This document shows, one piece after another, positions 29,018 through 54,693 of a DNA stretch of 64,000 nt. Every line of letters begins with the position of its first letter. The first letter of the stretch is position 1. Both the position numbers and the translations under genes were made by a program. The DNA is taken from NCBI GenBank assembly GCA_035650475.1, contig DASRHP010000005.1, positions 1 through 64,000 of the forward strand. Reading direction: 5' to 3'. The notes beneath the pieces were generated by a model. That model was given only the letters and a program-made list of their open reading frames with translations, did no database searches and was not told the DNA's origin. Source of the DNA: Candidatus Binataceae bacterium. Lineage in GTDB: Bacteria > Desulfobacterota > Binatia > Binatales > Binataceae.

Positions 29018-30148
29018 ATGGACAACTACGACTTCATCATCGTGGGGGGCGGAATTGCCGGCGCCTCGGCCGGCTACGCGCTCTCCGCCGGTGCCAAGGT
29101 CCTGGTGATCGAACGCGAGAGCCAGCCCGGCTATCATTCGACCGGCCGCTCGGCCGCGCTCTTCGTGCAGACCCACGGCCCCGACGTTATCCGCGCCCTC
29201 GCACGCGCGAGTAAGCCCTTCTTCCTCGGTCCGCCCGAAGACTTCACCGAATACCCGCTGCTGGCGCCGCGCGGGATGATGGTGATCGGGCGCGCCGACC
29301 AGCTAGCCGCGCTCGACAAATCGTTCCGCGAAGCGTCGCGGCACATCTCCGGCGTGCGCCGGCTGAGCCCGAGCGAGGCGCGCGATCGAGTCCCTGTGCT
29401 GCGCGAGGATTACCTCGCGGGCGCGGTGCTCGATCCCGAGGCGATGGATATTGACGTGCACGCCGTGCACTGGGGCTACCTGCGGGGGATGCGTGCGCGC
29501 GGCGGCACACTGGTCACGAACGCCGACCTCCTTCGGCTCGAGCGCAAATCCGATACGTGGACCGTGCATACGGCGGCGGGCGACTTTGCCGCGCCGGTCG
29601 TGATCGACGCGGCGGGGGCATGGTGCGACAAGGTCGCCGCGCTGGCCGGCGCGCGCCCGGTCGGGCTGGTGCCAAAGCGCCGCACGGCGTTTATCTTTCA
29701 GCCGCCCGCCGGTGTTGTGATCGACAACTGGCCGTCAGTGATCGATGTCGGCGAGAATTTCTACTTCAAGCCCGACGCCGGCCGGCTCCTCGCCTCGCCC
29801 GCCGACCAGACGCCGATGGAGCCGTGCGACGTGCAGCCCGACGATCTCGACGTGGCGATAGCCGTGAATCGGATCCAGCGCGCGGCGGCGCTGCCTATCG
29901 TGCATATCGAGCGCAAGTGGGCGGGGCTGCGTTCGTTCGTCGCCGACGGATGCCCGGTGGTCGGTTACGATCCCGAGGTGAAGGGCTTCTTCTGGCTCGC
30001 GGGCCAGGGCGGCTACGGGATTGAAACGTCGCCCGCGATGGGGCGGCTTGGCGCAAGTCTCGCGCTCGGGCGCGGGGTGCCGCGCGACCTCGCCGCTTCA
30101 GGCGTCAGCGAAGCCGTGCTTTCGCCGGGGCGCTTCGCACGCGCATAG
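29018..30148 (+). CDS. FAD-dependent D-amino-acid dehydrogenase (DauA-like, DAO family)
   Basis: 376 residues. The N-terminal VGGGIAGASAGYAL binds FAD, and the following ERESQPGYHSTGRSAALF is the pattern seen in D-arginine dehydrogenase DauA and relatives. GWFWLAGQ-like FFWLAGQGGYGIETSPAMG closes the fold. It should oxidise D-amino acids (basic or broad range) to imino acids. It is 9 bp upstream of a D-aminoacylase gene, which supports a D-amino-acid pathway. Confidence 0.85.
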   Translation: MDNYDFIIVGGGIAGASAGYALSAGAKVLVIERESQPGYHSTGRSAALFVQTHGPDVIRALARASKPFFLGPPEDFTEYPLLAPRGMMVIGRADQLAALDKSFREASRHISGVRRLSPSEARDRVPVLREDYLAGAVLDPEAMDIDVHAVHWGYLRGMRARGGTLVTNADLLRLERKSDTWTVHTAAGDFAAPVVIDAAGAWCDKVAALAGARPVGLVPKRRTAFIFQPPAGVVIDNWPSVIDVGENFYFKPDAGRLLASPADQTPMEPCDVQPDDLDVAIAVNRIQRAAALPIVHIERKWAGLRSFVADGCPVVGYDPEVKGFFWLAGQGGYGIETSPAMGRLGASLALGRGVPRDLAASGVSEAVLSPGRFARA

Positions 30149-30157
30149 GAATTCGCC

Positions 30158-31654
30158 ATGACTTGGGAGCGCTACGATATCGTGATCCGCGGTGCGACGG
30201 TTTTTGACGGCACCGGCGCCCCGCCGTTCGTCTCGGACATCGCGATCCGCGCCGACCGCATCGCGGCGCTCGGGAAAATTGAGGGCGCGGCGGGCCGTGA
30301 GATCGACGCGCGCGGCCTTGCGCTTGCACCCGGTTTCATCGACGTCCACAGCCACGACGACTTCGCCGTCTTCACTACGCCCGCGATGGACTTCAAAGTG
30401 ATGCAGGGCGTGACCACCGACGTCGTCGGCAACTGCGGGATGGGCGCAGCGCCGTACGACGCGGTACGCGCGCACTTTGGAATGTTCTTCGGCGAGGCGG
30501 CGCTCGCCGGATGGCGCGGCTATCGCGGCTACCTCGAAGCGGTCGATCGCGACCCGCCGAGCCTCAACGTCGCGGCGCTGGTCGGCCACAACACGGTGCG
30601 CGCGGCCGTGACGGGGATGGCGCGGCGGGCGCCGAGCGTCGGCGAGCTGAGCGCGATGCGCGCGATTGTGCGCGAGGGAATGGAGGCCGGCGCGGTCGGG
30701 CTTTCCACCGGGCTCATCTATGAACCGGGACGCCACGCGGCGACCGAAGAGATAATCGAACTGGCGCGCGAGGCCGCCGCGGCCGGCGGGCTTTACGCCA
30801 CCCACATGCGTAACGAGGCGAGCGGTCTGCTCGACGCCGTGCGCGAGACGATCCGCATCGGGCGCGAAGCCGGCGCGCGCGTCCAGATCTCCCATCATAA
30901 GGCCGCCGGCCGGCGCAACTGGGGCAGGGTGCGCGACTCGCTCGCGCTCATCGAGGAGGCGCGCGCCCGGGGCCTCGACGTCACAGCCGACCAATATCCT
31001 TACACCTCGGGCAGCACCGTGCTCTCCGCCGTGATCCACAACAACGCCCTCAATCCGCAGGGCGACCGCGGCGGCGTCGCGCGCGTCGAGCCCGAACGCG
31101 TGCTGATTGCCTCCGCACCGGCGCATCCCGAGTACGAGGGGAAAACGATCGCCGAGCTTGCCGCGCAATTCGGCCTTCCGGCTGAGGACGCCGCGCGCAA
31201 GGTGGACGCCGACGAGCGCGGCCGCACGATCGCGATCCTCGACCTGATGGACGAGGGCGACGTGCGCGCGGTGATGCGCCATCCGACGACCATGATCGGC
31301 TCGGATGGGATTCCGCTAGGCGGCAAGCCCCATCCGCGGCTCTACGGCACTTTCCCGCGCGTGCTCGGCCGTTACGCCCGCGAGGCGGGACTGCTGACGA
31401 TGGAAGCAGCGGTGCATCGGATGACCGGGATGGCGGCGGCGAAGTTCGAGCTCAGGGAGCGCGGCGTCATTCGCGCCGGCGCGTTCGCCGATCTCGTCGT
31501 CTTCGATCCCGCGACGGTCGTCGATACCGGCACCTACCACGAGCCCAAGCGCCACCCAAATGGGATCGCGCACGTCTTCGTCAACGGGGTCGCCGTGGTA
31601 CGCGACGGCCGCCATACCGCGGCCCGCCCCGGCCGTGCGCTGCGCCGCGGCTGA
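30158..31654 (+). CDS. N-acyl-D-amino-acid deacylase (D-aminoacylase)
   Basis: 498 residues, amidohydrolase superfamily. The DVHSHDD metal motif, the GNCGMG cysteine typical of D-aminoacylases, ISHHKAAG and the catalytic aspartate in IGSDGIPL are all present, with beta-sandwich segments at both ends (GFIDVHSH after LAPG; GAFADLVVFDP). It would release free D-amino acids from N-acyl forms for the dehydrogenase encoded just upstream. Dihydroorotase-like or other amidohydrolase functions are less likely. Confidence 0.9.
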   Translation: MTWERYDIVIRGATVFDGTGAPPFVSDIAIRADRIAALGKIEGAAGREIDARGLALAPGFIDVHSHDDFAVFTTPAMDFKVMQGVTTDVVGNCGMGAAPYDAVRAHFGMFFGEAALAGWRGYRGYLEAVDRDPPSLNVAALVGHNTVRAAVTGMARRAPSVGELSAMRAIVREGMEAGAVGLSTGLIYEPGRHAATEEIIELAREAAAAGGLYATHMRNEASGLLDAVRETIRIGREAGARVQISHHKAAGRRNWGRVRDSLALIEEARARGLDVTADQYPYTSGSTVLSAVIHNNALNPQGDRGGVARVEPERVLIASAPAHPEYEGKTIAELAAQFGLPAEDAARKVDADERGRTIAILDLMDEGDVRAVMRHPTTMIGSDGIPLGGKPHPRLYGTFPRVLGRYAREAGLLTMEAAVHRMTGMAAAKFELRERGVIRAGAFADLVVFDPATVVDTGTYHEPKRHPNGIAHVFVNGVAVVRDGRHTAARPGRALRRG

Positions 31655-31738
31655 GCATCTATACCGCTTTGGCCCCGCCCGGCCGGCGCTGTCGCGCGGG
31701 CGGCGCGGGCAGGCTATGATGCAAGGTCCGGTGGCGCG

Positions 31739-32359
31739 ATGATCGCGATCGTCGATTACAAGGCGGGCAACCTGACCAGCGTGGCGCGCGCACTCGAGCA
31801 TCTCGGCCACCCGTGCGAGATCACCGACCGTCCCGAGCGCGTGCGCGCCGCCGAGCGCGTCATCCTGCCCGGCGTCGGAGCGGCGGGCGCGACGATGGAA
31901 AATCTTCGCGCGCTCAAGCTCGACGAGGCCCTGCGCACTGACGTGGCGCGCGCGGGCAAGCCGTTTCTGGGCATCTGCATCGGGATCCAGGTGTTGCTCG
32001 ACCGCAGCGAGGAGGACGACGCACGCTGCCTGGGAATCATCGCCGGGCGCGTGGCGCGCTTTCCAGTGGCGGTGGACGGCCGCCCGCTCAAGGTCCCGCA
32101 GATCGGATGGAACCGGGTGCGCCAAACCCGCGCACATCCGGTCTTCCGCGGCATCCCCGACAACACCCACTTCTATTTCGTCAACTCCTACTACCCGATC
32201 CCGGACGATCCGGCGCTTGCGATCGCGACGAGCGACCACGGAGTGACGTTCTGCGCCGCGCTCGCGCGCGACAACGTTGTCGCCACCCAGTTTCATCTCG
32301 AAAAGAGCGGTGCGGCGGGCCTGCGCCTGCTCGACAACTTCTGCCGGCAGCGGTTCTGA
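31739..32359 (+). CDS. hisH: Imidazole glycerol phosphate synthase, glutaminase subunit
   Basis: 206 residues of class I glutamine amidotransferase. The nucleophile is in GICIGIQVLLD and the catalytic histidine/glutamate in VVATQFHLEKSG; VDYKAGNLTSV is the standard HisH start. It supplies ammonia to HisF, encoded 3 bp downstream. GICIGIQ replaces the more common GICLGMQ without loss of the cysteine. Confidence 0.96.
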   Translation: MIAIVDYKAGNLTSVARALEHLGHPCEITDRPERVRAAERVILPGVGAAGATMENLRALKLDEALRTDVARAGKPFLGICIGIQVLLDRSEEDDARCLGIIAGRVARFPVAVDGRPLKVPQIGWNRVRQTRAHPVFRGIPDNTHFYFVNSYYPIPDDPALAIATSDHGVTFCAALARDNVVATQFHLEKSGAAGLRLLDNFCRQRF

Positions 32360-32362
32360 GCG

Positions 32363-33166
32363 ATGCTTGCCAAGCGGATAATCCCGTGCCTCGACGTGCG
32401 CGCGGGCAAGGTCACCAAGGGCGTCAGGTTTCTCGACAACGTGGACGTTGGCGATCCGGTGGCGATGGCACGCTACTACTACGAGCAGGGCGCCGACGAG
32501 CTGGTCTTTTACGACATCACGGCCTCCAACGAGCGGCGCGGGATCATGCTCGAGGTGGTGCGCGCGGTGGCGCGCGAAATCTTTATCCCGTTCAGCGTGG
32601 GCGGCGGGCTCCGCACGCTGGAGGACATGCGCGCGGTGCTGCTGGCCGGCGCCGAGAAAGTCTCGATCGATTCGGGCGCGGTGCGCGACCCCTCGCTGAT
32701 CACCGCCGGCGCGCGCGCCTTCGGCAGCCAGTGCATCGTGCTCTCGATGCAGGTGAAGCGCACCGGCCGCGCCGGGCTGCCCTCGGGCCACGAGGTCATC
32801 ATCGACGGCGGCCGGCTGCCCACCGGCCGCGACGCGCTGGAGTGGGCGCGCGAGGGCGAGCGGCTGGGCGCGGGCGAGCTGTGCATCAATTCGATCGACA
32901 ACGACGGCACCAAGCTCGGCTACGATCTCGAGATAACGCGGAGGATCGCCGACGCCGTGGGCATCCCGGTCATCGCTTCGGGCGGGGCCGGCGAGCCGCG
33001 CCATCTGCTGGAGGCGTTCACCGCGGGCGGCGCCGACGCCGCGATCGTCGCCTCGATCGTGCATTACGGCGAGGCCACGATCCCGGAGCTGAAGCGCTAC
33101 CTGCGCGCGGGCGGAGTCGAAGTGCGCGAGGCGATCCATCTGGAAGAGAGGAGCGCGAGCACGTGA
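32363..33166 (+). CDS. hisF: Imidazole glycerol phosphate synthase, cyclase subunit
   Basis: 267 residues, (beta/alpha)8 barrel. [16 protein letters not shown] carries the first catalytic aspartate and the second lies in [21 protein letters not shown] and [12 protein letters not shown] are the phosphate-binding loops. It forms imidazole glycerol phosphate and AICAR using ammonia from HisH. The stop overlaps the start of ribH. Confidence 0.97.
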
Positions 33167-41277: not shown

Positions 41278-41381
41278 GCGACAACAAAGCGATGCCTCCG
41301 GCAATTTGCAAAATCGGCCCCGTTGATGGTTAGAAGGGTTTGCGGGGCAGAACCGAAATCTGGGAGGCAGGAAGAGGCACG

Positions 41382-42491
41382 ATGGCGAAAATCATCGACG
41401 CCGACGGGCATATCGTCGAGCCGCGCATCCTGTGGGAAGAATACGTCGAGCCGGCCTACCGCGACCGCATCCCGAAGATCATCAAGGACGCCGAGGGCAT
41501 CGATCGCTTCGGGGCCGGCAGTTGGGCCCGCGCAGGAATTTATTTCCCCGCCGCGATGTGCATCCCGGGCGGGCTCAGCCCCGAGCGGATGCGCAAGTTA
41601 AGCTGGGACGATCTGCGTCCGGGCAGCTACGACCCCCACGCCCGCATCAAGGACATGGACGCCGAAGGGATCGACGTCTCGTTTCTCTTCCCCTCGCTGG
41701 GCCTGGGCTACGTCGCGCTGCGCGATATCGAGCTGTCGATTGCGGCCTGTCGCGCCTACAACAACTGGATGGCTGACTTCTGCCGGCCCTACCGTGACCG
41801 GCTCTACAGCATCGCGCCCGTGCCGCTGTTCGACGTCGCGGCGGCGGCGGCCGAGATGCGCCGGGTGGTCCGCGAGCACGGCGTGCGCGCGGTCGCCGTG
41901 CGGCCCAATCCGTACGGCGAGCGCCTGCTGAGCGACCCGGCTTACGACCGCTTCTGGAGCGAGGCCGAGGAGCTCGACTGCACGATCGCGCTGCACGGCG
42001 CCGTCGGCGGCGACATGCCGACCGCCGGCTTCGAGCGCTACCGCGATTTCTTCCAGCGCATGATCATCTCGCATCCGCTGGAGCAGCAGATGGCGTGCAT
42101 GGATCTGATCTGCGGCGGCGTGCTCGAGCGCCATCCGCGCCTGCGCGTGGCGTTCCTGGAGGCCGGCGGAATGTGGGTTACGTACTGGCTCGCCCGGCTC
42201 GATGAGTTTTACGAAAAGATCGGCTTCATGGTGCCGAAGGCGAGGCTCAAACCGAGCGAATATTTTAACCGCCAGTGCTTCTGCTCGTGCGAGCCGGACG
42301 ATATAGCACTTGGGACCGCTGCCGAATTGGGTGCAGATGACTACCTGATGTGGGCCTCGGACTATCCGCACTACGACTGCACCTTTCCGGGCGCGGTCGA
42401 GGAGCTGCGCGAGCACTGCGCGGCGCTGCCCGAGGCGTCGCGCCGCAAGGTGATGGGCGACAACGCCGCGCGCTGCTACGGGGTCGCCTGA
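41382..42491 (+). CDS. Amidohydrolase family metal-dependent hydrolase
   Basis: 369 residues, amidohydrolase_2 type. DADGHIVEP is the first metal motif, IALHGAVGG and MIISHP the next, and WASDYPHYD the catalytic aspartate segment. Enzymes of this group act as decarboxylases or hydratases of aromatic and cyclic acids. The ATG at 41382 follows GGAAGAGG. Its last codons lie inside the left copy of the 164-bp repeat that bounds the insert to the right. Confidence 0.87.
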   Translation: MAKIIDADGHIVEPRILWEEYVEPAYRDRIPKIIKDAEGIDRFGAGSWARAGIYFPAAMCIPGGLSPERMRKLSWDDLRPGSYDPHARIKDMDAEGIDVSFLFPSLGLGYVALRDIELSIAACRAYNNWMADFCRPYRDRLYSIAPVPLFDVAAAAAEMRRVVREHGVRAVAVRPNPYGERLLSDPAYDRFWSEAEELDCTIALHGAVGGDMPTAGFERYRDFFQRMIISHPLEQQMACMDLICGGVLERHPRLRVAFLEAGGMWVTYWLARLDEFYEKIGFMVPKARLKPSEYFNRQCFCSCEPDDIALGTAAELGADDYLMWASDYPHYDCTFPGAVEELREHCAALPEASRRKVMGDNAARCYGVA

Positions 42492-42627
42492 GTGCGCGCT
42501 TCCCGCACCTGACACGCGAGCGGCCGCTCAAAGCCGACGTGACAAGAAGAAAGGCGGGCTACTGGCCGCGAGCGCGCAGCTCGCGCTGGGCCACTTCGAG
42601 GTCGGCGTCCACCATCATTTCGACCAG
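42464..42627. repeat. Direct repeat, left copy (164 bp)
   Basis: 164 bp that match 48060-48223 with four differences by eye. The unit contains the last codons of the amidohydrolase gene, the short intergenic spacer, and the 3' end of gmd. The intact gmd is next to the right copy, and the intact amidohydrolase next to the left copy, so the ancestral junction was duplicated when the 5.4-kb segment between the copies entered. Confidence 0.93.
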
Positions 42628-42670
42628 ATCGAAGATGACGCGCGCAGCCACTGGGCTTCGCCCCAGCATG
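42559..42670 (-). pseudogene. 3' remnant of a gmd-like gene
   Basis: The minus-strand frame ending at 42559 reads [21 protein letters not shown], identical to the end of the intact gmd at 48155. The next dozen residues upstream (MLGRSPVAARVIFD) are still recognisably gmd-like but differ from the intact copy ([12 protein letters not shown]). Beyond about 42670 the similarity ends. It is a fragment, perhaps from a diverged allele. Confidence 0.6.
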
Positions 42671-43193
42671 TTAAACGAAGACGCTAGGCTCGCGTCGTAA
42701 TTGTTGTGGGCCCTGCATCTATGCCGGATCGGTGGGCCTCGCGGATTCGCCGTCAACGAAGGCGCAGACAAAGGAGAGTGTGAATTTGTGAGGCCATCCT
42801 GGCTCGACAATTTCACCTTCATCGGTCAGCAGGACCCGAATTGAGCAAGGGAGCTAGTCCCTTGAGCAACTGAGGCTGGCGCTTGGGCGGGCGTGCAAGA
42901 CCGTGCAGTTAATCATGTCCATTGGTGGCAACTCGCGCCGTGCGAACACCAGCGCGAAGCGTCGAGGCAGAGCGAGCCGACCCGCCGCGCTGATGTCGGT
43001 GGGTGCGGGAAATCCCCGGGCAACCTGCCCGGATATTCGCCGACTTCAGGCGTTAGCTCAGCTCAGTGGCGGAACCTGCAAGAAAACGCCACCAGCTCGC
43101 TCGGACACGTGCGAAAGTAGCTGACTAGCTGCCAACAGGGCACCGTCGCCTCGGAAAATTCCCGAGCTGCGCCCTCTACGGACAGAGCCGTGA
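42628..43193. other. Non-coding stretch at the left end of the insert
   Basis: No open frame here has convincing codon bias, a ribosome site or a recognisable domain. It contains mixed-composition sequence, including a stretch near 43050 that faintly resembles a tRNA D-arm but lacks the rest of a tRNA. It is probably decayed sequence of the incoming element. Confidence 0.5.
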
Positions 43194-46100
43194 TCAGCGT
43201 ACTTGACCGCGGTCATCTTCTGCTCTCGCCGGCAGGGCGGTCGATGCGTTGGCAAAGCGCGGCCGCATGGAAAGCTGACGGATAAGGTCAGTGACCTTCT
43301 CAATCTCGCGCCTACTGTTCGTGAACCAGTCAGTAGACCAGATCCGGTGAATGGCCCAACCCAAATTCTCAAGGATCATCTGCCTAAGCCGATCGCGGTC
43401 GCGGGTCGACTTCGCGGAGTGGTAGCTTGCTCCGTCACATTCTATGCCAAGAATGAAGGAGCCCGGTTGTTGCGGATGTCTCACCGCAATATCGATGAAA
43501 AACCCCGCCACCCCCACTTGCGATTCGCACTCAAAGCCCTGCCGCTTCAGCGCGTTGGCTACGGCGATCTCAAAATCGCTCTGCGGTTGTCGCACCTCCG
43601 ACAACTTCTCGGCTTCAAGCTGTCCCGTCTTGGCATAGCGGAGGTAGGCCTTCAAGATCGCAACCCCAGGTGGGCTCGAACTATCCGTCCGAAGTTCGTC
43701 AGGGTCTATCGAAGAGAAAACCACGACCCGATGTTTTGCTCGTGTGAAGAGGACATTCAAGCGCCGCGGGCCTTGCGCAAGGTTGATCGGGCCAAACCTC
43801 TGGAACAAATTTCCATGCTTGTCACGCCCATAGGTCACGGATATGAAGATAACATCCCGCTCGTCTCCTTGGACGTTCTCCAGATTCTTGACAAAGAACG
43901 GCTCGGCCGTTTCCTTTTGCCGTTCAAAGAAGAGTCGGGCCATTTCGTCGTGTCGCGTTCGCTCCGTCAAAAGGTCATCAATAAGTTCGCGCTGCTGGTG
44001 ATTTAAAGCGACGACGCCAAGCGACAATTCGGGGCAACTCCGAAGGTGATTAAGAACCGCATTCACGACCCGTTCGGCTTCCTGTCGATTGAACTTTGCC
44101 TGCCCAGCCTCATAGACACCATCTGCTATGTACCTGAACTGAATGCCAGTGTGCGCCGTTTTGGACATCGGGGAAGGAAAGACCAGAAGTCGGTTACGGT
44201 AAAATTCAGCGTTAGAAAAAGCAATCAGGCTGTCATGGCGCGAACGGTAATGCCACCGAAGCTGGCGCATCGGCTGATAGAGCGTTGCGGCAACATCGAG
44301 GACGCTTTCGTGCTCCTCCACGACGGACTTCTCCGCCGATGGTTCTTCGTCCGGATCCGGGTCGAATTGCCTCTCGAAGAACGTGGAAGGTGGCAACTGC
44401 TTGGGATCCCCAACAACGATTAGCTGGCTGCCGCGCGCAATGGCCCCCATTGCATCCTCGGGTTTCAATTGCGAAGCCTCGTCCATAACAACCAAGTCGA
44501 ACTTAAGATGGCCCGGTGTTATGTACTGCGCGACGGAGAGCGGCCCCATCATGAAGCACGGCTTCAACGCTTGAAGGGCGCGACCCGCTCGCTGAACGAG
44601 TTGTCGTATCGGGATGTGCCGCCTGGTTTTGCCGATTTCCTGCTTTATGAGTGACAATTCCGTCCGCTGCCCAACAGGTCCGGATTGGATACCCGGTGGA
44701 ACAAGGCGCCGGCTAGCAAGCAACGCGACCGCTTGTCTGTTCAGCTCGATTAGCTCTTTGTCGAGTTGAACAAAGCGCTCTCGAACGGCGTTCTGTCGAA
44801 GGCCCGAGAATTGCAGGAGTTCCGGATAGCCCCTCGTCAACTGACGCGCCAGAGTGTTGTAAAAGATATATTCATACGCAGGAATCATATCTTCGATGCC
44901 GATAACCTTTGACTCAGCCAGGTCGCTTATCGCACTGAGCCCGGCCGCCTGCAGTTCTTTTCGGCTCCGCTGACACTGTATCCACTCTGACAAGCTATCG
45001 GTATTCCTTAGGGCAGCCTCCGCCGTTCGTTCGAGCCCTGCGAGCGTCAAGGGCTCGGGCCCCCACCAAGCTCTGGGATTTAGCTGTCCCAATTTCGCGA
45101 ATGCCGTGAGAGCATCATCGAGGGCGCGAACCTGCCCCCGAAGCGTTGCCAATTCCTCTCCGAGCGACAAAAGACGGGTGTCAGTGTCAGAAGCGAGAAG
45201 CCATGATCTGAGGGCTTCAGGTATCTCTTGACGTTTGATCGCCTCAATTGCATTCAGCGCTCCTGACACTATCGCTAGGTCAGTGTCTGGGCCTTGAAAT
45301 TGCTTCCCAATCAACCGTCGAGCAGGGTGCTCAGCAAGGGCGGCGGCTGTTTGGCAGTGTAAGCTAAATGCGTCAATTGCGGCCAGAACATCAACACTGT
45401 TCCGCCCGGAACTCACATTGAACCGGTTGAACGCTGCCGTAATATTGTGCACCGTTTCCATAAGGGTTCCCACTTCGTCGTACGAAAGGGGACCTTGGTA
45501 CGGCAACTTACGCTCTTCGCTCACAGCGTTTAAAACATCAAGCGCTTTTCTGCACGTGTCGGTTATTACCTTACCGCTCGCTCGCGGTGGCAAGATGAAG
45601 TGTCTTCTGAAGGCGCGTTTGGCCTTTCTATAACTGAAGCCGACCAGCCGAGACAGCGCGCCGGAACGTTCGCAAACCAGGAGCCAGCGAGCCAACAACT
45701 CGCGATGGAGTACACCAGTCGATCTCATCGCTCTATGAACGGCCTCGGCTGCGTCAGCTAGAGTAGCGAGTGCCAATCCATCCAGGTGTCCCAGCCTGAA
45801 TTGAATCGCTTGCGAGCAAGCGAGCCGGAGTGGTTCAAACACTTTGGGGTCACGCTGCTCTTGAATCGCTGGCAGCCGCTCGCGTAGCGCTGCGTAACGT
45901 TTTCTCCATTCGATCACGTCGTCGACGAAAGAACGCACCTGCGCCTCGTCCTTCGCACTCCGTATGACACTTAGTATGGCTCTCGTAGGACCGGCCTGCA
46001 CGTCCGGAAGTCGTTCGCACTTTTCGACCAAGCGGGTGATCGCCTCTAACGAGCCGTTGAGAGAGATACCGGTGGTCCGTGTCAGGCGCCCCGTCGCTTC

Positions 46101-47843
46101 TATTAGAAACTTAGAGCGAGAGTGGATTTCAGCCAGCCTGGCACAGAGCTGCTGCTCACCCGAATAACTAAGGTCGGCGTTCGCGATATGTCGCCAAGGA
46201 TGCTTCTGGAGGTCCGGGAACCTTCGGTTCAGTTCGCGTAGCTGCCGTCCGTACACTTCGAGAAGAGCGCGATCGGAGTCGAATTTAGATAAGCGAGTGC
46301 TGCTGTCTCGCTCGAGCTTAATGCTTTCAACCAGCGTGGGATCAAACCTAAGCGCCTGACGACAGCTTTCACGACGCCATATGACATCAAAGCCAGTACA
46401 GCCGAGCGCGCTAAAGGGCGCGTTGATCAGTCTGGCGTATGTCAGAAGCTGCCTCTTAGCGTCCAGAAGCAACTTTCTCTTTTCCGATAAATTCTTCGGC
46501 TCAGCGAAACACTTCTTTGCGGCGAGGCGTTCCTCTAGTTCATCCAGCAGTTTTCGCTTGTCGGTTTTGTGGCTGTGAAGTTCCAGACAGAAGATTCCGA
46601 GACCGGCCTGATCGAGCCGACGACGCACAACTTCGAGTGCGGCGAGCTTCTCCGACACAAACAAGACCGTTTTGCCCTGAGCAAGAGTGGACGCGATCAA
46701 ATTAGTTATGGTCTGTGACTTGCCTGTGCCAGGTGGCCCTTCGATGACGAGATTTTTTCCATCAATGGCATCGACCAACGCACTATGCTGAGAGCTGTCG
46801 GCATCATGTATCAGCGCGGGAGCCTTGCCCTGATCCTCCAGCGCATCGATGTCATATTCCTCCGCGAATGACGCATCACTTCCCTTGGTTCCCTCGAAGA
46901 AGTCCCTTATGCGCGGGTGTTCAAGGAGATCTGTTTCCTTGGGCCACGTCTTCGGATCGAGATCTCTGAACATTAGGAGTTTCGCGAATGAAACCAAGCC
47001 AAGAGTAACCCGTCGGCGCAGTCGCCATTGCGGTTTCGCAGCCAGTATACCCTGAAACTTGCGAAAGTAACTCTCCGGACTATCCCCATCCAAGAGTGTA
47101 GGCATATCGAATCCGAATTCGCGTTTCAGTTTCTCGCGTAGAGAAAGATTTTCCTCGATCTGATCTGAAAAGGAATAAGTGATCTCGAACGCGAAGCTAG
47201 CCGAGGCTTGAGCTGCCTTTGCCCTCTCGATAGTGACGGGAACCAGTAGCAACGGTGCCAGACGAGATTGATTGGAGTTATCGCTCTCGTACCATTCCAG
47301 AAATCCGAAGATAAGATGCAGCAACTTCGTTCCGGACTCCTCGATTGCCGTTCTGGCAGCAAAAGATATGCGTCGGAGAATTGCTTCAAGCTCCTCAGGG
47401 TAGTGGAGGGTCTGAACTCGCCTGACCCGCTGTCCCGGAACGACGGGCAGCATCGAGCGTTCAGGCAGGTCTACAGAGACCGGAAGCCCCAGCTGCTTCG
47501 CGTGGTCTACGACCTTCGGTTTCGGCGGAGCGCCCTTTGGCTCGGGGACGGATTTGAATGAGATTGGAGTGCCGTCGAGCAGCGCGTCGAAAAGAGCGTC
47601 TGGAGGAACACCGACGATCGACAGGCTAGATCTCAAGGTGTGCCGAAAATTCAGCAGCTTGTTCCGATTTGTGAGATCGAGTAGGCGAGCGCGAATGCGT
47701 TCCAACCCGATCATGGTGTTCCCAAGAAGGAAGTCCTGGCTGATGGGAGCGACGGAGTCGGTTTTGGCCGAGTTCAGGGAGCCAGCGCGCCTAATTCTGG
47801 CATCTGTATCGCCGGTTTCAACTTCGCTCTTTGCGCGAGTCAC
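43194..47843 (-). CDS. DUF4011-SF1 helicase-Vsr/PD-(D/E)XK nuclease protein (Hhe-like defence protein)
   Basis: 1549 residues from a GTG at 47843. Residues about 45-330 are DUF4011-like (LERIRARLLDLTNRNKLLNF). A superfamily 1 helicase follows: Walker A GPPGTGKS at 369-376, DEAS at 1121-1124, GDPKQLPP after it, and the late motif RRLNVLFTRAKHRVVV. Residues about 1424-1520 form a Vsr/DUF559-type nuclease with D1451 in FFIDIAV and E1468 in GIECDGASYH, then GWAIHRIWSTDW. The same order, DUF4011, helicase, Vsr-like nuclease, describes the single-gene Hhe anti-phage system. It is an intact frame in sequence foreign to its surroundings. Confidence 0.9.
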   Translation of the reverse strand: MTRAKSEVETGDTDARIRRAGSLNSAKTDSVAPISQDFLLGNTMIGLERIRARLLDLTNRNKLLNFRHTLRSSLSIVGVPPDALFDALLDGTPISFKSVPEPKGAPPKPKVVDHAKQLGLPVSVDLPERSMLPVVPGQRVRRVQTLHYPEELEAILRRISFAARTAIEESGTKLLHLIFGFLEWYESDNSNQSRLAPLLLVPVTIERAKAAQASASFAFEITYSFSDQIEENLSLREKLKREFGFDMPTLLDGDSPESYFRKFQGILAAKPQWRLRRRVTLGLVSFAKLLMFRDLDPKTWPKETDLLEHPRIRDFFEGTKGSDASFAEEYDIDALEDQGKAPALIHDADSSQHSALVDAIDGKNLVIEGPPGTGKSQTITNLIASTLAQGKTVLFVSEKLAALEVVRRRLDQAGLGIFCLELHSHKTDKRKLLDELEERLAAKKCFAEPKNLSEKRKLLLDAKRQLLTYARLINAPFSALGCTGFDVIWRRESCRQALRFDPTLVESIKLERDSSTRLSKFDSDRALLEVYGRQLRELNRRFPDLQKHPWRHIANADLSYSGEQQLCARLAEIHSRSKFLIEATGRLTRTTGISLNGSLEAITRLVEKCERLPDVQAGPTRAILSVIRSAKDEAQVRSFVDDVIEWRKRYAALRERLPAIQEQRDPKVFEPLRLACSQAIQFRLGHLDGLALATLADAAEAVHRAMRSTGVLHRELLARWLLVCERSGALSRLVGFSYRKAKRAFRRHFILPPRASGKVITDTCRKALDVLNAVSEERKLPYQGPLSYDEVGTLMETVHNITAAFNRFNVSSGRNSVDVLAAIDAFSLHCQTAAALAEHPARRLIGKQFQGPDTDLAIVSGALNAIEAIKRQEIPEALRSWLLASDTDTRLLSLGEELATLRGQVRALDDALTAFAKLGQLNPRAWWGPEPLTLAGLERTAEAALRNTDSLSEWIQCQRSRKELQAAGLSAISDLAESKVIGIEDMIPAYEYIFYNTLARQLTRGYPELLQFSGLRQNAVRERFVQLDKELIELNRQAVALLASRRLVPPGIQSGPVGQRTELSLIKQEIGKTRRHIPIRQLVQRAGRALQALKPCFMMGPLSVAQYITPGHLKFDLVVMDEASQLKPEDAMGAIARGSQLIVVGDPKQLPPSTFFERQFDPDPDEEPSAEKSVVEEHESVLDVAATLYQPMRQLRWHYRSRHDSLIAFSNAEFYRNRLLVFPSPMSKTAHTGIQFRYIADGVYEAGQAKFNRQEAERVVNAVLNHLRSCPELSLGVVALNHQQRELIDDLLTERTRHDEMARLFFERQKETAEPFFVKNLENVQGDERDVIFISVTYGRDKHGNLFQRFGPINLAQGPRRLNVLFTRAKHRVVVFSSIDPDELRTDSSSPPGVAILKAYLRYAKTGQLEAEKLSEVRQPQSDFEIAVANALKRQGFECESQVGVAGFFIDIAVRHPQQPGSFILGIECDGASYHSAKSTRDRDRLRQMILENLGWAIHRIWSTDWFTNSRREIEKVTDLIRQLSMRPRFANASTALPARAEDDRGQVR

Positions 47844-47858
47844 AAGGAGAACCTCTCA

Positions 47859-47921
47859 ATGCGTTGACGCATGGGAGCGACCGAAGTTAGACACTATAGA
47901 TTAGCCGAAGCGCCACGTTAA
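47859..47921 (-). promoter_or_regulatory. Promoter and palindromic operator of the helicase-nuclease gene
   Basis: Minus-strand TTAACG (47921-47916) and TATAGT (47898-47893) are spaced by 17 bp. Between them and the GTG lies ATGCG-TTGA-CGCAT (47859-47872), a perfect 5-4-5 inverted repeat that could be an operator or an mRNA hairpin sequestering the start region. Confidence 0.5.
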
Positions 47922-48059
47922 CTCAAAGCGCGCTATAGCCGAGATAAGTCGGTTCCTGCTACCGATTTGCGAAACCGGTGCACACGGACTCAATGTTCTG
48001 TAAGCAATCGCTCGACCGTGGCGCGGCCCGAGAGATCGGTGCGCTCACTCACTGAACAG

Positions 48060-48223
48060 CGCCGCCCGCTGCTACGGGGTCGCCTGAGTGCGCGCTTCCC
48101 GCACCTGACACGCGAGCGGCCGCTCAAAGCCGACGTGAAGAGAAGAAAGGCGGGCTACTGGCCGCGAGCGCGCAGCTCGCGCTGGGCCACTTCGAGGTCG
48201 GCGTCCACCATCATCTCGACCAG
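48060..48223. repeat. Direct repeat, right copy (164 bp)
   Basis: Partner of 42464-42627. It starts with a short tail of the amidohydrolase coding sequence (GCTGCTACGGGGTCGCCTGA), continues through the spacer and merges into the intact gmd gene. The offset between the copies is constant (5596 bp), so there are no indels within the unit. Confidence 0.93.
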
Positions 48224-49174
48224 CTGACCGAAGTTCACCCGTGGGCGCCATCCCAGGATTCGTCGCGCCTTCGCCGCGTCGCCCTGAAGAAGATCGACTT
48301 CGGCCGGCCGCAGGTAGCGCGGATCGGTCTCGACGTACTTGCGCCAGTCGAGCTTGAGGCGGTCGAAGACGCGCTCGAGGAACTCCTGCACCGAGTGGGT
48401 TTCGCCGGTGGCGATCACGTAGTCGTCAGGACGCTCCTGCTGGAGCATCATCCACATCGCCTCGACGTAGTCGCCGGCAAAGCCCCAGTCGCGGCGCGCG
48501 TCGAGGTTGCCCAGCGCGAGCTTGTCCTGCAGGCCGAGCTTGATGCGGGTGGCGCTGCGGGTGATCTTGCGGGTGACGAAGTTCTCGCCGCGGCGCGGCG
48601 ATTCGTGGTTGAACAGGATCCCGTTGGCAGCGAACAGGCCGTAGGCCTCGCGGTAATTGATCGTCTGCCAGTGGGCATAAACCTTGGCGCAGGCGTAAGG
48701 GCTGCGCGGATGGAACGGGGTGGTCTCGCGCTGCGGCACCTCGGCCACCCGCCCGAACATCTCGGAAGAGCCCGCCTGGTAATAGCGCACCGCGCGGCCG
48801 TGGCGCTTGTTGTGGTCGCGTATCGCCTCAAGCAGGCGCAGCGCACCCAGGCCGACGACGTCGGCGGTGTACTCGGGCTGGTCGAAGGAAATCCGCACGT
48901 GCGACTGTGCGGCGAGATTGTAAACCTCGTCGGGGCGCACCTGCTCGACGATCGCGCGAATCCCGGTGCCGTCGCCGAGGTCGCCGTAGTGCAGCTCCAG
49001 CGGCCCCGCCGCCAGCGGCCCGAAGCCGCGGCGCAAATGGTCGATGCGGCCGGTAGCGAAGCTCGAAGTCCGCCGCACCATCCCATGGACTTCATAGCCC
49101 TTCTTGATGAGTAATTCGGCCAGGTAGGAACCGTCCTGCCCGGTCACCCCGGTAATCAGCGCGACTTTTGCCAT
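48155..49174 (-). CDS. gmd: GDP-mannose 4,6-dehydratase
   Basis: 339 residues. [16 protein letters not shown] is the NADP loop, YNLAAQSHV follows, and the catalytic tyrosine/lysine pair is in [28 protein letters not shown] is a signature of Gmd. It makes GDP-4-keto-6-deoxymannose for fucose, rhamnose or related sugars in surface glycans. It lies downstream of a cupin gene and a WecA-like gene on the same strand. Its 3' end falls within the direct repeat but is intact. Confidence 0.95.
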
Positions 49175-49216
49175 GCTATGTGGTCCGCGTCCGTGGTTTC
49201 CGCCGCCGGCGCCGGC

Positions 49217-49579
49217 CTAGTCTCCCGGGACCAGGCGGTGCGAGTCGCTGTCGAAGTGCTGGGTGGAGAACTCGTACAGCTCGGCGTCCTCCAACGCTTC
49301 CATCTGATGGACCAGCCCGCGCGGAACGTCCATGCACTCGCCCGCCTGCAACTCGAATTCCTCGATGACTGCGGAAGCGGGCGACTCCTTGACTCGCACC
49401 AGCAGGCGCCCGGCGCGCAGGTAGAACGACTCCGTCTTGAGCTTATGGAAGTGCAGCGAACAGCGCTTGCCCTTGCGAATCTCGAGAATCTTGCCGCAGT
49501 AAAGCTCGCCGTTGACGATCCATACTTCGCGGCCCCATCCCTTCGGCACTACCCTGACCGGCTTACGCGCCCGGTTCAT
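49217..49579 (-). CDS. Cupin-domain protein (mannose-6-phosphate isomerase type II-like)
   Basis: 120 residues in a single small beta-barrel. GWGREVWIVNG and SLHFHKLKTESFYLRAG are the first cupin motif with the metal histidines, and DVPRGLVHQMEALED the second. Similar single-domain cupins act as phosphomannose isomerases or sugar epimerases; between gmd and a glycosyltransferase gene, a role in mannose metabolism is reasonable but not proven. Confidence 0.8.
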   Translation of the reverse strand: MNRARKPVRVVPKGWGREVWIVNGELYCGKILEIRKGKRCSLHFHKLKTESFYLRAGRLLVRVKESPASAVIEEFELQAGECMDVPRGLVHQMEALEDAELYEFSTQHFDSDSHRLVPGD

Positions 49580-49741
49580 AGCCGTCGCACGACCCCCCTT
49601 CAGACGTTAGCGGCGCCCCCGCCGGGCGCACGTCCTGCGTGGTCGGCTCCATGCCCTCGATCACCATGCCAGAAGGGCGGGGTCCAGACCAGCGCCGGCC
49701 CGCAGGCGCCGAACAGCTCGTGGGAAAAGCCATCAGTGGCG

Positions 49742-51598
49742 CTAGATCGCGGGCGCCGAAGGGGCGACTGCCGCCGGCATGCGGCGGGCCGAAGCACCGC
49801 TAGCGTTGCTGGCGGCGACGAACTGGCTGACCCCAATTGAAAAGCGCTCGATCGGCAGATGGCGGGCGTTGGCGAACTCCGCTACGGTTGCCAGCCGCTC
49901 TTCGCCGACATCGTCGGTGGCGATCAGGATGCGATGGAACCCGGTGGCCGCATAGATCCGCTCCAGCTCGTCGATGGGACCCAGCACGCAATGGCCGTGG
50001 ACCAGCTTGCCCTCCTTGAAGGCGTCGTCATCGACGAAGCCAACCAGGCGGGTGCAGCGGTCGCTGCCGGAGAAGATGTAGCGTACTGCCGCCTCGCCTG
50101 TCCGCCCGGCTCCGACAATCAACACGCGCTCGGTCGGCATCGCCAACAGCGCGATCGCCCGCCGCAGCGCCTGGAACGACAGCCGGGTGAACACCAACAG
50201 GTTGAACAGCAGGATGACGTAGAGGACGATTATCGAGCCCGAAATCTCCATCGGCACGAACAGCGTCGCCAATCCGAGCAGGATACCGGCGAGCAGCGCG
50301 CCGTTAGCGAAGCGGATGATGTCGGCGAGACCGGCGTAACGCCAGATCCCGCGATAAACTCCGGTCAATCCAAAGGCGCCGTAGGTCGCCACCAGCAGCA
50401 ACGGCGTGCTCCGGATCATCGACCCGACCAGCGCATCATTGATCAAAAAGTCGCGCCGCAGCAGCGAAGCGCCGAAGTAAGCGGCCGGAATCAGCGCCAA
50501 ATCGAGCACGCCCTCGGCCAGCCGCCGCTTGTAGGCCAGGCTCAGCAGGTAGCGCGCGCCGCCTTGCAGATAGCTGTACGCCACCGCCGGGGCGCGCCCG
50601 TCGAACGTGAGATCGACCATGAACAGACCGATCACGGCAATAACCGCGCTCACCCACGGCAGCGCGCTCAGCAGATAGGCATGGTTCAGCAGCGTGACCG
50701 CCGCCGCGCACAGCGCGCCGGCCACGGCCAAGCCCCAACTCACCAGCACCGCGCGGCGCACCGTCAGCCCGAGCATCAGCAGCCGGTGGTGCGAATGGTC
50801 AAGGCCGCGGCGTGAGATCGGATTGCCAGTAGCGGCGCGCGACACCGTCACGATGCTGGTGTCGAACAGCGGCACCAGCATCACCAGCAATGGGAAAACC
50901 GCCTTGGACAGATGCGAGTTGGCTTGGAGCGCCGAACCCTCCAGCGCCATCGCGCCGAGCAGAAAACCCATCGGCAGCGCGCCCGAATCGCCCATGAAGA
51001 TAGACGCGGGATGGAAATTGAAGAGCAGGAAGGCGGCGAAGGCGCCCGCGGCGGCCGCCGTCGCGCAGACCAGACCGGTGTCTTGCGACCACCATGCAGC
51101 CACCCCGATCGCTCCCGCCGCCGCAATTCCCACCCCGGCGGCCAAACCGTCAAGGCCGTCGATCAGGTTAAAGGCGTTGATCACCGCCGTCATGAAGAAG
51201 CCGGCGCCCAACAGGTTCAACAGCGGCCAGCGCGTGACCTCGGGCGGCGGAGGGCCAAAGGCCAGAAATCCGGCGACAACGACCAACTCCAGCGCCAGCT
51301 TGCGCGAGGGCGTCAGCGCCATTTTGTCATCGACGACGCCCACCGTCAGCAACACCAGCATCCCGGCCGCCATCCATGGCGGTAGCGCCCCCGTCATCGC
51401 CAATGTCGCAATCACAGCGCTAACGATGGCGACGCCGCCCAGAACGGGCGTAGCTTCTGGATGACCCGATTCCTCGCTCGGTTCGGCAACGACGGCCAAC
51501 CGCCGCGCAACCAGCTTCGCCAAGGGAGTCAAGGCAGCGGCCAAGCCGAACGACGCGGCTGCGCAGATCAGGACCTTGGCGGCGGTGGTCGGAAACAT
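49742..51598 (-). CDS. WecA/MraY-type GlcNAc-1-P transferase fused to a CapD-like N-terminal domain
   Basis: 618 residues. The first ~340 are a polyprenyl-phosphate N-acetylhexosamine-1-phosphate transferase: VGVVDDK (D90, D91), NAFNLIDGLDGLA, FMGDSGALP and DHSHHRLL, with about ten helices. From about residue 360 the chain continues with four more helices (DLALIPAAYFGASLLRRD) and, from 491, a Rossmann domain opening RVLIVGAGRTGEAA. That second half is the N-terminal part of FlaA1/CapD-type nucleotide-sugar epimerases without the epimerase domain. It would start glycan assembly on undecaprenyl phosphate; the added half may sense or channel a nucleotide sugar. Confidence 0.85.
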   Translation of the reverse strand: MFPTTAAKVLICAAASFGLAAALTPLAKLVARRLAVVAEPSEESGHPEATPVLGGVAIVSAVIATLAMTGALPPWMAAGMLVLLTVGVVDDKMALTPSRKLALELVVVAGFLAFGPPPPEVTRWPLLNLLGAGFFMTAVINAFNLIDGLDGLAAGVGIAAAGAIGVAAWWSQDTGLVCATAAAAGAFAAFLLFNFHPASIFMGDSGALPMGFLLGAMALEGSALQANSHLSKAVFPLLVMLVPLFDTSIVTVSRAATGNPISRRGLDHSHHRLLMLGLTVRRAVLVSWGLAVAGALCAAAVTLLNHAYLLSALPWVSAVIAVIGLFMVDLTFDGRAPAVAYSYLQGGARYLLSLAYKRRLAEGVLDLALIPAAYFGASLLRRDFLINDALVGSMIRSTPLLLVATYGAFGLTGVYRGIWRYAGLADIIRFANGALLAGILLGLATLFVPMEISGSIIVLYVILLFNLLVFTRLSFQALRRAIALLAMPTERVLIVGAGRTGEAAVRYIFSGSDRCTRLVGFVDDDAFKEGKLVHGHCVLGPIDELERIYAATGFHRILIATDDVGEERLATVAEFANARHLPIERFSIGVSQFVAASNASGASARRMPAAVAPSAPAI

Positions 51599-52023
51599 CA
51601 GCTAACGCTCTGGAAATTCTCTACCGTCAGCGGGCGATTCGATGTGCCGAACGCGCCTGTCAGCATTTCTGCTCTTCAATCTGGTTCCGCACACTCAATA
51701 TGCGGACAATTTGTGCAAGGAGCACCCATAATGCTCATATTTTTGCCTTGACTGGCAAGCGTCCAGGCGGGTATTGAATCGGATATGCCATCTTTAGACT
51801 CTTTAAACATAAATTACTTTATCTGGAGAAGGCATATGAGGCAATAGAAGCCGGCGCCGCGTAAGACGCCTGAAGCCTTCCCCCCTTTTTGAGGAGGCCT
51901 GTAATATCGGGGAAATCTCGGCTTTATTCAGCCAATTTGGACTGAAGCGACCGGATAGAGCAGCCCGGATGAGCGGTTTTGCGGCCAGCCTCGCCGCCGC
52001 CTGAACGGCGGCGAAATCCCCCG
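51599..52023. other. AT-rich intergenic region upstream of the glycan operon
   Basis: 425 bp with much lower GC than its flanks, likely holding the promoter of the minus-strand WecA-fusion gene. A hairpin with 8-bp arms (CGCCGCCG at 51992, CGGCGGCG at 52006) lies next to the DUF3501 stop and may end that operon. A 20-codon minus-strand frame with three cysteines (51676-51738) is too short to call. Confidence 0.6.
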
Positions 52024-52614
52024 CTACTCGCCACGCAACTCGGCCGCCAGCGCCGTGGCCAGCGCCCCATCGATCTTGGCTCGCGCGGCAAGGTGAGGAT
52101 GGTCCACCTCGATTGCGACCCTGCCCGCGGCGGCGAGCGCGCCGAAACGGTCCGCGTCGGCCACGCCGCCGACCGGAAAGGCGATGAACTGCACCGAGCT
52201 TATTTGGTCCGGTGACATCTGGCGCAAATCGAAGCGGGCGCCGACACGCTGCCCGTCAATCACAATCCAAAAGTGGCGCTCGAGGCCGACCAACGCAGTC
52301 AGCGCCGCGTCCCGTTCGACCGCGTCGGCGTACTCGATAAGCAAGGTCGCCGCCAGCTCGCCCGGCTTGGGCATCAGCTCGTTGTAGGTAGCAATCTCGT
52401 GGTTGACCGCGGCGTCCTCGAAGATCCGCTCGGCTCGCAGGATTTCGTGGATCTGGTACCAGACAGTCCGCTCGTTCTCGAACAGCAGGGTCAGATGTTC
52501 GCCGACGGCCAGCCGGCGACGATCCTTTTCCGCGATGCACAACGGGCGCAGGATGCGGCGCACGCGGTCGTAGACCGTGACCGGCAGAACTTCATGCGCG
52601 CTTATCGGCTTCAC
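52024..52614 (-). CDS. DUF3501 family protein
   Basis: 196 residues from a GTG at 52614 with GAGGAG 7 nt upstream. The opening KPISAHEVLPVTVYDRVRR, the central FENERTVWYQIHEILRAE and ATYNELMPKPGELAATLLIE are the conserved blocks of DUF3501, found next to rubrerythrin and an (Fe-S)-binding oxidoreductase in many genomes, as here. It is 4 bp after the Fe-S gene. Function is unknown; oxidative or iron stress is inferred from partners and from the Fur-type box upstream of the operon. Confidence 0.85.
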   Translation of the reverse strand: MKPISAHEVLPVTVYDRVRRILRPLCIAEKDRRRLAVGEHLTLLFENERTVWYQIHEILRAERIFEDAAVNHEIATYNELMPKPGELAATLLIEYADAVERDAALTALVGLERHFWIVIDGQRVGARFDLRQMSPDQISSVQFIAFPVGGVADADRFGALAAAGRVAIEVDHPHLAARAKIDGALATALAAELRGE

Positions 52615-52618
52615 ACGA

Positions 52619-53968
52619 TCACTCCTCGGCGGCTACCGGCGCCGGCGGCGCTACCGCCTGGGCGAAACCGTCGCTCCGGTAGGCGCGCTCCAGGATCTCC
52701 AGCGGATGGAGCGGGCGGGTGCCGATCGCCTGCTCGATCTGAATCGCGGCCAGCGGGCAGTCGGTCGCCATCACCTGCGCCTCGGCCTGCCGCATCCCTG
52801 AAAACGCCCTCTCGCCCCACTTCATCGAGAGCTCGAAAAATTCCTTCTTCATCGCCCATGTGCCGTCGTGCGCGGTGCAGGCGTCCACCGTGACGACCTC
52901 CGCGCCCGGAATCGAGCGCATCAAGTCGCGCGAGCGGAAGCCGATGTTTTGCGCTTTGAGATGGCACGGCACGTGGTAGGCGACCTTACCCGGCGTGGTC
53001 TGGAACTGGCGGTCGAACTTACCCTCGCGCCTGAGTGCATAAAGCAATTCGTTCGTGTCAGCGACGGCGGCGGCAATTTCGCGCGCCTCGGCATTGTCGA
53101 GCAGCTCCGGATATTCCCGGCGCATCATGAGCGAGCAGGTCGGATTGATCGCGGCGATCCTGTAGCCTTGGCGCACCAGCGGCAGCATCGCCGCGACGTT
53201 GGCGCGCGCGAGCTTCTGCGCAAAGGCGATGTCGCCGCCGTCGAGCGCCGGCATCCCGCAGCAATTCTGCGCGGGCGACGCGATGGTGCATCGGTTGCGC
53301 GCCAGCACGGCAACCGCGGCGCGCCCGGGCGCGGGGTTGTAGTAGTTGACGAAGCAGGTATGGAAGAGCACGACCTTGGCGGCCGGCTCGGCCGGCGCGG
53401 CGGGAATCCCGGTGCGCCTGAGCCACGCCTCGAGGGTTTCGTCGGCGAAGTCGGGGAGCCGCTTGCCGCGCGCCAGCCCGAGCAGCTTCTCCATCAATGC
53501 ACGCTGCACCGGATTACGGCAGGCCCAGTTGGCAAGCGCCGGAAACGTGCTGCCCAGCTTGCCCAGGCGGTCAGGATTGCCGAGCATCTTCTCCCGCAGA
53601 GCGAGCCCGTGGGCGCGTCCCCTGACCGCCCGCGCGCGCAGCATCAGGCGCGGGAAATCGAGCTGGAACTCGTGCCCGTCGCGCGGCGTGTAGGGGCAGC
53701 GCACCTCGCACAACTTGCAGCCGTAACACAGATCGACGACGCGATTGCGCTCCGCCTCGCTCAGCGCACGCACGTCGCCGCCGCTCTGCCGATCGATGGC
53801 CTCAAACAGCGCCGGAAACGACGGGCACAGATTGAAGCACAGCCGGCATCCGTGGCAGATGTCGAAGACGCGCTCGAGTTCGCCGGCAAGCTTGTCGGGC
53901 TCCCAGTACCTGGGTTCGTTGGGATTGTAGGAGAGCCCGTCGGTTGGCCGCGCCTGGATACGACTCAT
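52619..53968 (-). CDS. (Fe-S)-binding oxidoreductase, GlpC/heterodisulfide-reductase-like
   Basis: 449 residues. Two 4Fe-4S motifs (CHGCRLCFNLCP and CYGCKLCEVRCP) come first, followed by two CCG domains (TCFVNYYNP to NCCGMPALDGG, and HVPCHLKAQNIG to CTAHDGTW). This is the architecture of GlpC and HdrD-like electron carriers. The usual last cysteine pair is altered to DACTAHDGTWA, a variant typical of the group linked to rubrerythrin and DUF3501. It likely passes electrons to rubrerythrin. Confidence 0.85.
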   Translation of the reverse strand: MSRIQARPTDGLSYNPNEPRYWEPDKLAGELERVFDICHGCRLCFNLCPSFPALFEAIDRQSGGDVRALSEAERNRVVDLCYGCKLCEVRCPYTPRDGHEFQLDFPRLMLRARAVRGRAHGLALREKMLGNPDRLGKLGSTFPALANWACRNPVQRALMEKLLGLARGKRLPDFADETLEAWLRRTGIPAAPAEPAAKVVLFHTCFVNYYNPAPGRAAVAVLARNRCTIASPAQNCCGMPALDGGDIAFAQKLARANVAAMLPLVRQGYRIAAINPTCSLMMRREYPELLDNAEAREIAAAVADTNELLYALRREGKFDRQFQTTPGKVAYHVPCHLKAQNIGFRSRDLMRSIPGAEVVTVDACTAHDGTWAMKKEFFELSMKWGERAFSGMRQAEAQVMATDCPLAAIQIEQAIGTRPLHPLEILERAYRSDGFAQAVAPPAPVAAEE

Positions 53969-54064
53969 CGAAACCCGCTCATAGTTTGCTTAACAGGCTG
54001 AAGCCCTGTGGGCGCACTACTAACTTGCGGCCGGTATCGGCGCACCGGCCGCCAAGGAAGCGGC

Positions 54065-54096
54065 GGCCCGCCGAACGCGCATAGCGCCGGCGGGCC
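54065..54096. other. Hairpin between the rubrerythrin and Fe-S genes
   Basis: GGCCCGCCG (54065-54073) and CGGCGGGCC (54088-54096) form a 9-bp stem with a 14-nt loop and no T-run. It may stabilise the rubrerythrin mRNA 3' end or attenuate read-through into the Fe-S gene. Confidence 0.55.
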
Positions 54097-54117
54097 GTAA
54101 TTGCGCAAGTCCGCCTC

Positions 54118-54534
54118 TTAGAGGGTGTCGGCCGCCTTTTGGAAGCGCCCGGCGTGCGACTTCTCGGCCTTGGCCAAGGTCTCGAACCAGTCGGCGATTT
54201 CGCCGAAACCTTCCTCGCGCGCGACCTTCGCCATTCCCGGGTACATGTTGGTGTACTCGTAAGTTTCGCCGTGTACTGCGGACTTGAGGTTGAGCAGGGT
54301 GTCGCCGATCGGTTGATCGGTCACCGGATCGCCGACCTGCTTGAGATAGTCGAGATGGCCGTGCGCGTGGCCAGTTTCGCCCTCGGCGGTGTCGCGGAAC
54401 AGTCCGGCGACTTCCGGCTGGCCCTCGACGTCGGCGATCTTGGCGAAGTACAGGTAGCGACGGTTGGCTTGGCTCTCGCCCGCAAAGGCTTCTTTGAGAT
54501 TGGCGTGGGTCTTGGTTCCCTTCAGGCTCTTCAT
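54118..54534 (-). CDS. Rubrerythrin (diiron domain only)
   Basis: 138 residues of four-helix diiron fold. Iron ligands are visible in [39 protein letters not shown] and [11 protein letters not shown]. The C-terminal rubredoxin domain of classical rubrerythrin is missing, so an outside electron donor is required; the Fe-S protein encoded downstream is a candidate. It detoxifies hydrogen peroxide in low-oxygen organisms. GGGAG lies upstream of the ATG. Confidence 0.92.
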
Positions 54535-54671
54535 CGTTTCGTTTCTCCCGTTATGCGTGTGTTTCGCCGCTGCGACAGGTGCGCCGGCGGCGCCCCGGAG
54601 CGTCCGCCCGAAGCCGGCGCAGCACGCGCGATGCGGCCGCTGCGCCGCCCACCGGTTTGGCTCCGCCTACC

Positions 54672-54692
54672 GGATGATAATTATTATCATCC
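54672..54692. promoter_or_regulatory. Perfect Fur-type box
   Basis: A 21-bp perfect palindrome, GGATGATAAT-T-ATTATCATCC, centred on 54682. Its core TGATAATTATTATCA is an exact match to the 7-1-7 Fur box TGATAATNATTATCA. It sits 138 bp upstream of rubrerythrin and 2 bp after the stop of the HtrA-like gene, so it most likely controls the rubrerythrin/Fe-S/DUF3501 operon. PerR binds a similar sequence. Confidence 0.85.
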
Positions 54693-54693
54693 G

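Follow-up and report, generated by a model that had tools for sequence, protein, structure and literature searches.

Background

How did a single gene of low GC content come to lie between two nearly identical copies of host sequence, at the place where an amidohydrolase gene and the gene encoding GDP-mannose 4,6-dehydratase (gmd) converge? The question is raised by a locus inside the window, i.e. the whole stretch of 64,000 nucleotides from a Candidatus Binataceae bacterium that was analysed here. The initial annotation of this DNA proposed homologous recombination rather than transposition, and more particularly a single crossover with a circle or donor carrying a homologue of the gmd end. 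A precedent is provided by restriction-modification genes, for which PMC3874152 reports duplications of the target that measure in the order of 100 bp and are associated with rearrangements. Insertion of such genes with long target duplication has been described in Helicobacter (Nobusato et al. 2000, Gene 259:99; Furuta et al. 2010, NAR 38:2428; both as cited in PMC3874152, PMC3031569, PMC1643837 and PMC4978471), and the cause of the duplications is unsettled in the literature surveyed.

Methods

Direct repeats were searched for with a minimum length of 45 nt, a minimum identity of 80% and a spacing of 0.5-30 kb, pairs lying less than 500 bp apart being ignored. The scan covered 875 kb of this genome, consisting of 75 kb of contig C5 and 400 kb of each of the contigs C9 and C12. 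A gmd profile was built from seven gmd proteins, with 2,000 random extensions as control. The survey of homologues of the inserted gene comprised 92 loci, in 85 of which the gene had over 300 bp of flanking sequence on each side.

Results and Discussion

Structure of the locus

The features of the locus are collected in Table 1. The two direct repeats, each of 168 nt and 5,596 bp apart, are identical at 163 of their 168 positions (97.0%) and align without a gap. The homology between the two copies drops from 97% to nothing at both ends. Outward from the repeats, the left copy leads into the entire amidohydrolase gene and the right copy into the entire gmd gene, both of these convergent genes being therefore whole; the true start of the amidohydrolase may lie downstream of the start of its open reading frame. 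The end of gmd is consequently doubled (42559-42627 corresponds to 48155-48223, 69 nt), the gmd part of the left copy being a 93% match to gmd residues 312-339. The proposal that the repeats are made of host sequence extending over a gene end, the spacer and the gmd end is thereby borne out. Such a repeat pair is far beyond chance, since the next-best pair, which is also the sole other one to pass the thresholds in the 875 kb scanned, measures 47 nt at 87%. The single-strand fold of the 168-nt unit displays nothing special (z +1.2).

Table 1. Coordinates of the features at the amidohydrolase-gmd locus (positions in the window)
Feature	Position	Strand	Description and evidence
Amidohydrolase (Amidohydro_2), complete, left host neighbour	41340..42491	+	Stop codon 42489-42491; Pfam
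Left copy of the 168-nt duplication	42460..42627		Amidohydrolase gene end (32 nt), spacer (67 nt) and gmd end (69 nt)
Spacer inside the left copy	42492-42558		67 nt, between the amidohydrolase stop and the gmd end
Foreign insert	42628..48055		5,428 bp, one intact gene; GC
Left non-coding insert end	42628..43193		566 bp; first 60 bp not demonstrably gmd
DUF4011 - superfamily 1 helicase - MTES_1575 nuclease, 1,549 aa	43194..47843	-	Pfam, PADLOC, NCBIfam, alignment
Right non-coding insert end	47844..48055		212 bp, upstream of the helicase-nuclease gene
Right copy of the 168-nt duplication	48056..48223		Superfluous part is its amidohydrolase tail
gmd, GDP-mannose 4,6-dehydratase, complete, right host neighbour	48155..49174	-	Pfam; TIGR01472 above cut-off

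The DNA enclosed by the repeats has a GC content of 55.8%, against 67.2 +/- 1.5% (minimum 64.5%) in the other 5.4-kb pieces of the window, and the third-position GC of its gene is 60% against 83-87% in five host genes. Since the insert is low in GC and the repeats are host-like in this respect (68%), the locus is a foreign segment lying between two copies of host DNA. Promoter-like matches in the right non-coding end of the insert are at chance level only.

Low GC is also found elsewhere in the genome. At the start of contig C12 (G000:C12:3000-27000, L185-L186) the GC content is 54-60% in 4-kb windows, and this stretch is probably another foreign island. No long flanking direct repeats were detected around it by the repeat scan.

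The helicase-nuclease gene

The reading frame of the inserted gene is open throughout. Its product contains DUF4011, the AAA_11/AAA_12 helicase parts and the MTES_1575 nuclease, as recognized by Pfam, and an alignment with four relatives shows that it retains the Walker A motif as well as the C-terminal residues conserved in the nuclease. The best PADLOC families are PDC-S37 and Hhe, and the order of the domains is identical to that of the DUF4011 anti-phage proteins Hhe, PDC-S37 and ProA (PADLOC, NCBIfam NF042953 and NF058533). The protein is nevertheless 1,549 aa long as compared with the 1,797 positions of the Hhe model, and its NCBIfam scores remain below the cut-offs of both Hhe (1,481 bits, cut-off 2,000) and ProA (1,164 bits, cut-off 1,500). 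Judged from its sequence, it is a relative of Hhe belonging to the Hhe/PDC-S37/ProA anti-phage group, and not Hhe in the strict sense, since the score is under the NCBIfam equivalog cut-off. The names of these families suggest that it probably acts against phages. Neither plasmids nor phages yielded a close copy of the gene. Relatives within the DUF4011 family can also be fixed core genes, because the conserved gene that borders core defence hotspot 1 of Pseudomonas aeruginosa on the right is a large DUF4011 gene (PMC10250203).

Origin of the duplicated DNA

In a search of 96 genomes, the full repeat segment was found only here. Its gmd tail is recovered at 78-86% in the gmd genes of relatives, and the spacer together with the amidohydrolase end had no match in any other locus fetched, which argues that the duplication arose in this lineage. 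Of the five differences between the copies, two can be polarised. Position 42619 is T in the left copy and C in the right copy as well as in both same-genus genomes, and the right copy carries AGC where amidohydrolases have an Asn codon, AAC or AAT; both changes therefore sit in whichever copy is dispensable for the gene concerned. This pattern fits a duplication that would have been made in this lineage and followed by drift. A copy derived from a donor would put the changes in the same halves, and the pattern alone is non-decisive between drift and donor.

The amidohydrolase-gmd neighbourhood occurs in no relative and no empty site was seen among them, both same-genus genomes (G001 and G002) being devoid of this amidohydrolase (best matches 41-43%). 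Amidohydrolases of this type form an unusual expansion in other relatives, with many Amidohydro_2-type paralogues per genome and 22 and 55 matches to the amidohydrolase of the window in G018 and G024, respectively. The gmd protein is 91-92% identical in both same-genus genomes, where the gene is directly followed by genes starting near window position 56017. A block comprising gmd-cupin-glycosyltransferase-FeS-rubrerythrin is inverted in the window: it extends over 48150-54714 in comparison with G002 (L069) and over 48154-51477 in comparison with the shorter stretch from G001 (L068). One breakpoint of the inversion falls within the duplicated unit, at the stop codon of gmd.

Proposed insertion with a long target duplication

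The best explanation of the locus, to which we give about an even chance, is the insertion of a helicase-nuclease defence gene, not of the restriction-modification kind, with a long target duplication, host repair being the most likely agent of the joining. A foreign one-gene defence cassette encoding the Hhe-like helicase-nuclease would have been inserted between the two convergent host genes. Approximately 157-168 bp of host target DNA would have been duplicated on insertion, the 3' ends of both neighbours staying complete, and the copies would have drifted apart afterwards (5 changes in 168). The chromosome may have been broken open where its two strands were nicked some 160 nt from each other, the foreign fragment would then have been ligated in by Ku/LigD end joining, and the filling of the long overhangs would have created the duplication. 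Host repair most likely did the joining because the insert is without a recognisable mobility enzyme. Ku and the LigD primase-polymerase domain are encoded about 2 kb apart in this genome, which makes end-joining capture at a stagger of about 160 nt, with fill-in, possible; the filling of overhangs of this length by LigD is not demonstrated in the literature surveyed. These components carry different weights: we consider it rather probable that duplication and insertion were one event, and end joining with fill-in is put forward only as a tentative and somewhat doubtful cause, although end joining is the candidate that lends itself best to testing. The explanation is weakened by the failure to find an empty site among the relatives and by the rarity of such repeats around other Hhe-type genes.

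The locus resembles the restriction-modification insertions with long target duplication in combining a defence-type gene devoid of a recombinase, long direct repeats of host target sequence around it (168 nt at 97% here, in the order of 100 bp there) and a rearrangement nearby. It differs from them in its gene content, a single helicase-nuclease gene in whose product Pfam detected no methyltransferase domain, in its host, and in that no empty allele was seen. A second likeness is with the uptake of heterologous DNA through bacterial Ku/LigD end joining (Dupuy et al. 2019, NAR 47:1335, as referenced in PMC7719229): both proteins are encoded here, and a fragment captured with the help of neither homology nor a recombinase could leave a similar picture. 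The step from end joining to duplications of 168 bp is our own and does not originate from Dupuy et al. 2019.

Alternative routes of insertion

Among the other explanations, a Campbell-type single crossover survives best, although it is unlikely. A circle carrying the helicase-nuclease gene and the amidohydrolase-gmd end region would have integrated, maybe with subsequent deletion of redundant parts, and this leaves the repeat-insert-repeat structure. A stretch of 168 bp at 97% identity offers in principle enough homology for RecA, and the location of the differences in the would-be donor parts is predicted as well by this route as by drift. The donor would, however, have to carry precisely this lineage-specific segment, without anything further on either side. 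Since the spacer and the amidohydrolase end are without counterpart among the relatives retrieved, it would have had to be nearly the same strain, with the insert already enclosed by the repeats; a conspecific circle could thus account for the spread of an existing insertion but not for its origin. No such donor was found on plasmids or phages, and the non-coding ends of the insert contain no convincing remnant of gmd or of the amidohydrolase.

The particular donor envisaged in the initial annotation depended on a diverged continuation of gmd beyond the left repeat, at 42628-42690, and this continuation had to be rejected as non-significant at both the DNA and the protein level. When the DNA from 42628 onward was aligned to gmd with anchoring at the junction, 13% of random window pieces were as good, and unanchored local alignment of the same DNA to gmd returned nothing. 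With the gmd profile, the tail scored 25.7 bits by itself and 27.2 bits together with the real extension; 14% of the random extensions were equal or better, a proportion (p ~0.14) that cannot prove absence. The likeness noticed by eye past 42627 comprises LG..P and an F that is shifted by one residue; it does not exceed chance level. A single crossover with a gmd-end donor is unsupported because this supposed continuation is non-significant, and neither homology to a donor past the repeat nor a known donor with the segment was found.

The other half of that proposal, namely that transposition was not involved, has fared better. Known elements with an integrase or a transposase were rejected, as the insert contained no such gene by Pfam domains, no tRNA and no Rfam family in the corresponding scans, and no terminal inverted repeats at its ends in the inverted-repeat test. 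Whereas classical transposons are characterized by a transposase, terminal inverted repeats and a short target duplication, the duplication amounts here to 168 bp. Integrase islands carry an integrase gene within the element; the single gene present here has no integrase domain. Because of this lack of mobility features, and because the repeats consist of host sequence across a gene boundary, neither a classical transposon nor an integrase island at a gene end is a good fit.

Site-specific integration by an integrase acting in trans on a non-autonomous island, with the 3' end of gmd as attachment site, is quite improbable. Integrase islands typically insert at the 3' ends of genes and restore the gene. 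Such a route is difficult to reconcile with the extent of the repeat, which spans both gene ends and the whole spacer and goes far beyond what is needed to restore one gene, and no integrase or tRNA was found in or near the insert. It is very improbable that the 168 bp were first duplicated in tandem and that foreign DNA entered between the copies later. The final sequence would be the same and nothing here dates the two steps separately, but two rare events would be required, the second exactly at the junction, and no comparable tandem duplication was found in the 875 kb, in a scan that ignored pairs less than 500 bp apart. A misjoining of two loci at the repeat during assembly, conceivable in what is apparently a draft genome of 18 contigs, is most improbable, since the copies differ at five sites and are thus two real sequences, the host gene reached by each outer flank is complete, and a single contig of a same-genus genome holds DNA from either side of the locus (29018-33084 and 48150-54714).

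Occurrence of flanking repeats around related genes

Genes related to the inserted one are not regularly flanked by such repeats, unlike the gene of this locus. A near-identical repeat of more than 100 bp tightly surrounding the gene was observed at one of the 85 loci, L144 from Labilithrix, and this case is ambiguous; flanking repeats as a trait of Hhe genes were rejected on these grounds. The repeat of L144 (5277-5393 and 12156-12272, 117 bp, 95%) corresponds to the end of a DUF3427 helicase gene, and directly beside its left copy there is weak similarity to the beginning of that gene. An initial reading took the repeat for what was left of a second gene copy. In the sister genome G102, which is 94% identical over the DUF3427 gene, that gene occurs a single time, and the adjoining sequence retrieved contains no Hhe homology; as the DNA downstream likewise departs from that of L144, the case stays ambiguous. 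From these sequences, L144 is suggestive at most of a second Hhe-type insertion flanked by long repeats. In the 1.38 Mb of homologue loci there are four comparable repeat pairs, one of which lies around an Hhe gene.

Conclusions

The movement of single defence genes between genomes without a mobile element is largely an open question. Insertion with a long target duplication, our preferred reading of the locus, would provide a clean case outside restriction-modification in a bacterium equipped with Ku and LigD, indicating that the pattern is wider than restriction-modification systems and suggesting a testable mechanism; as one case, it carries moderate weight. We advance, as a speculative and so far rather unlikely generalization, that defence genes without a recombinase enter chromosomes by host end joining at staggered breaks and leave long target duplications behind. 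If true, the pattern known from Helicobacter would be a by-product of repair that also covers defence genes other than restriction-modification systems, such as the Hhe-like helicase-nucleases, and insertions with long duplications would become predictable from the repair genes of the host.
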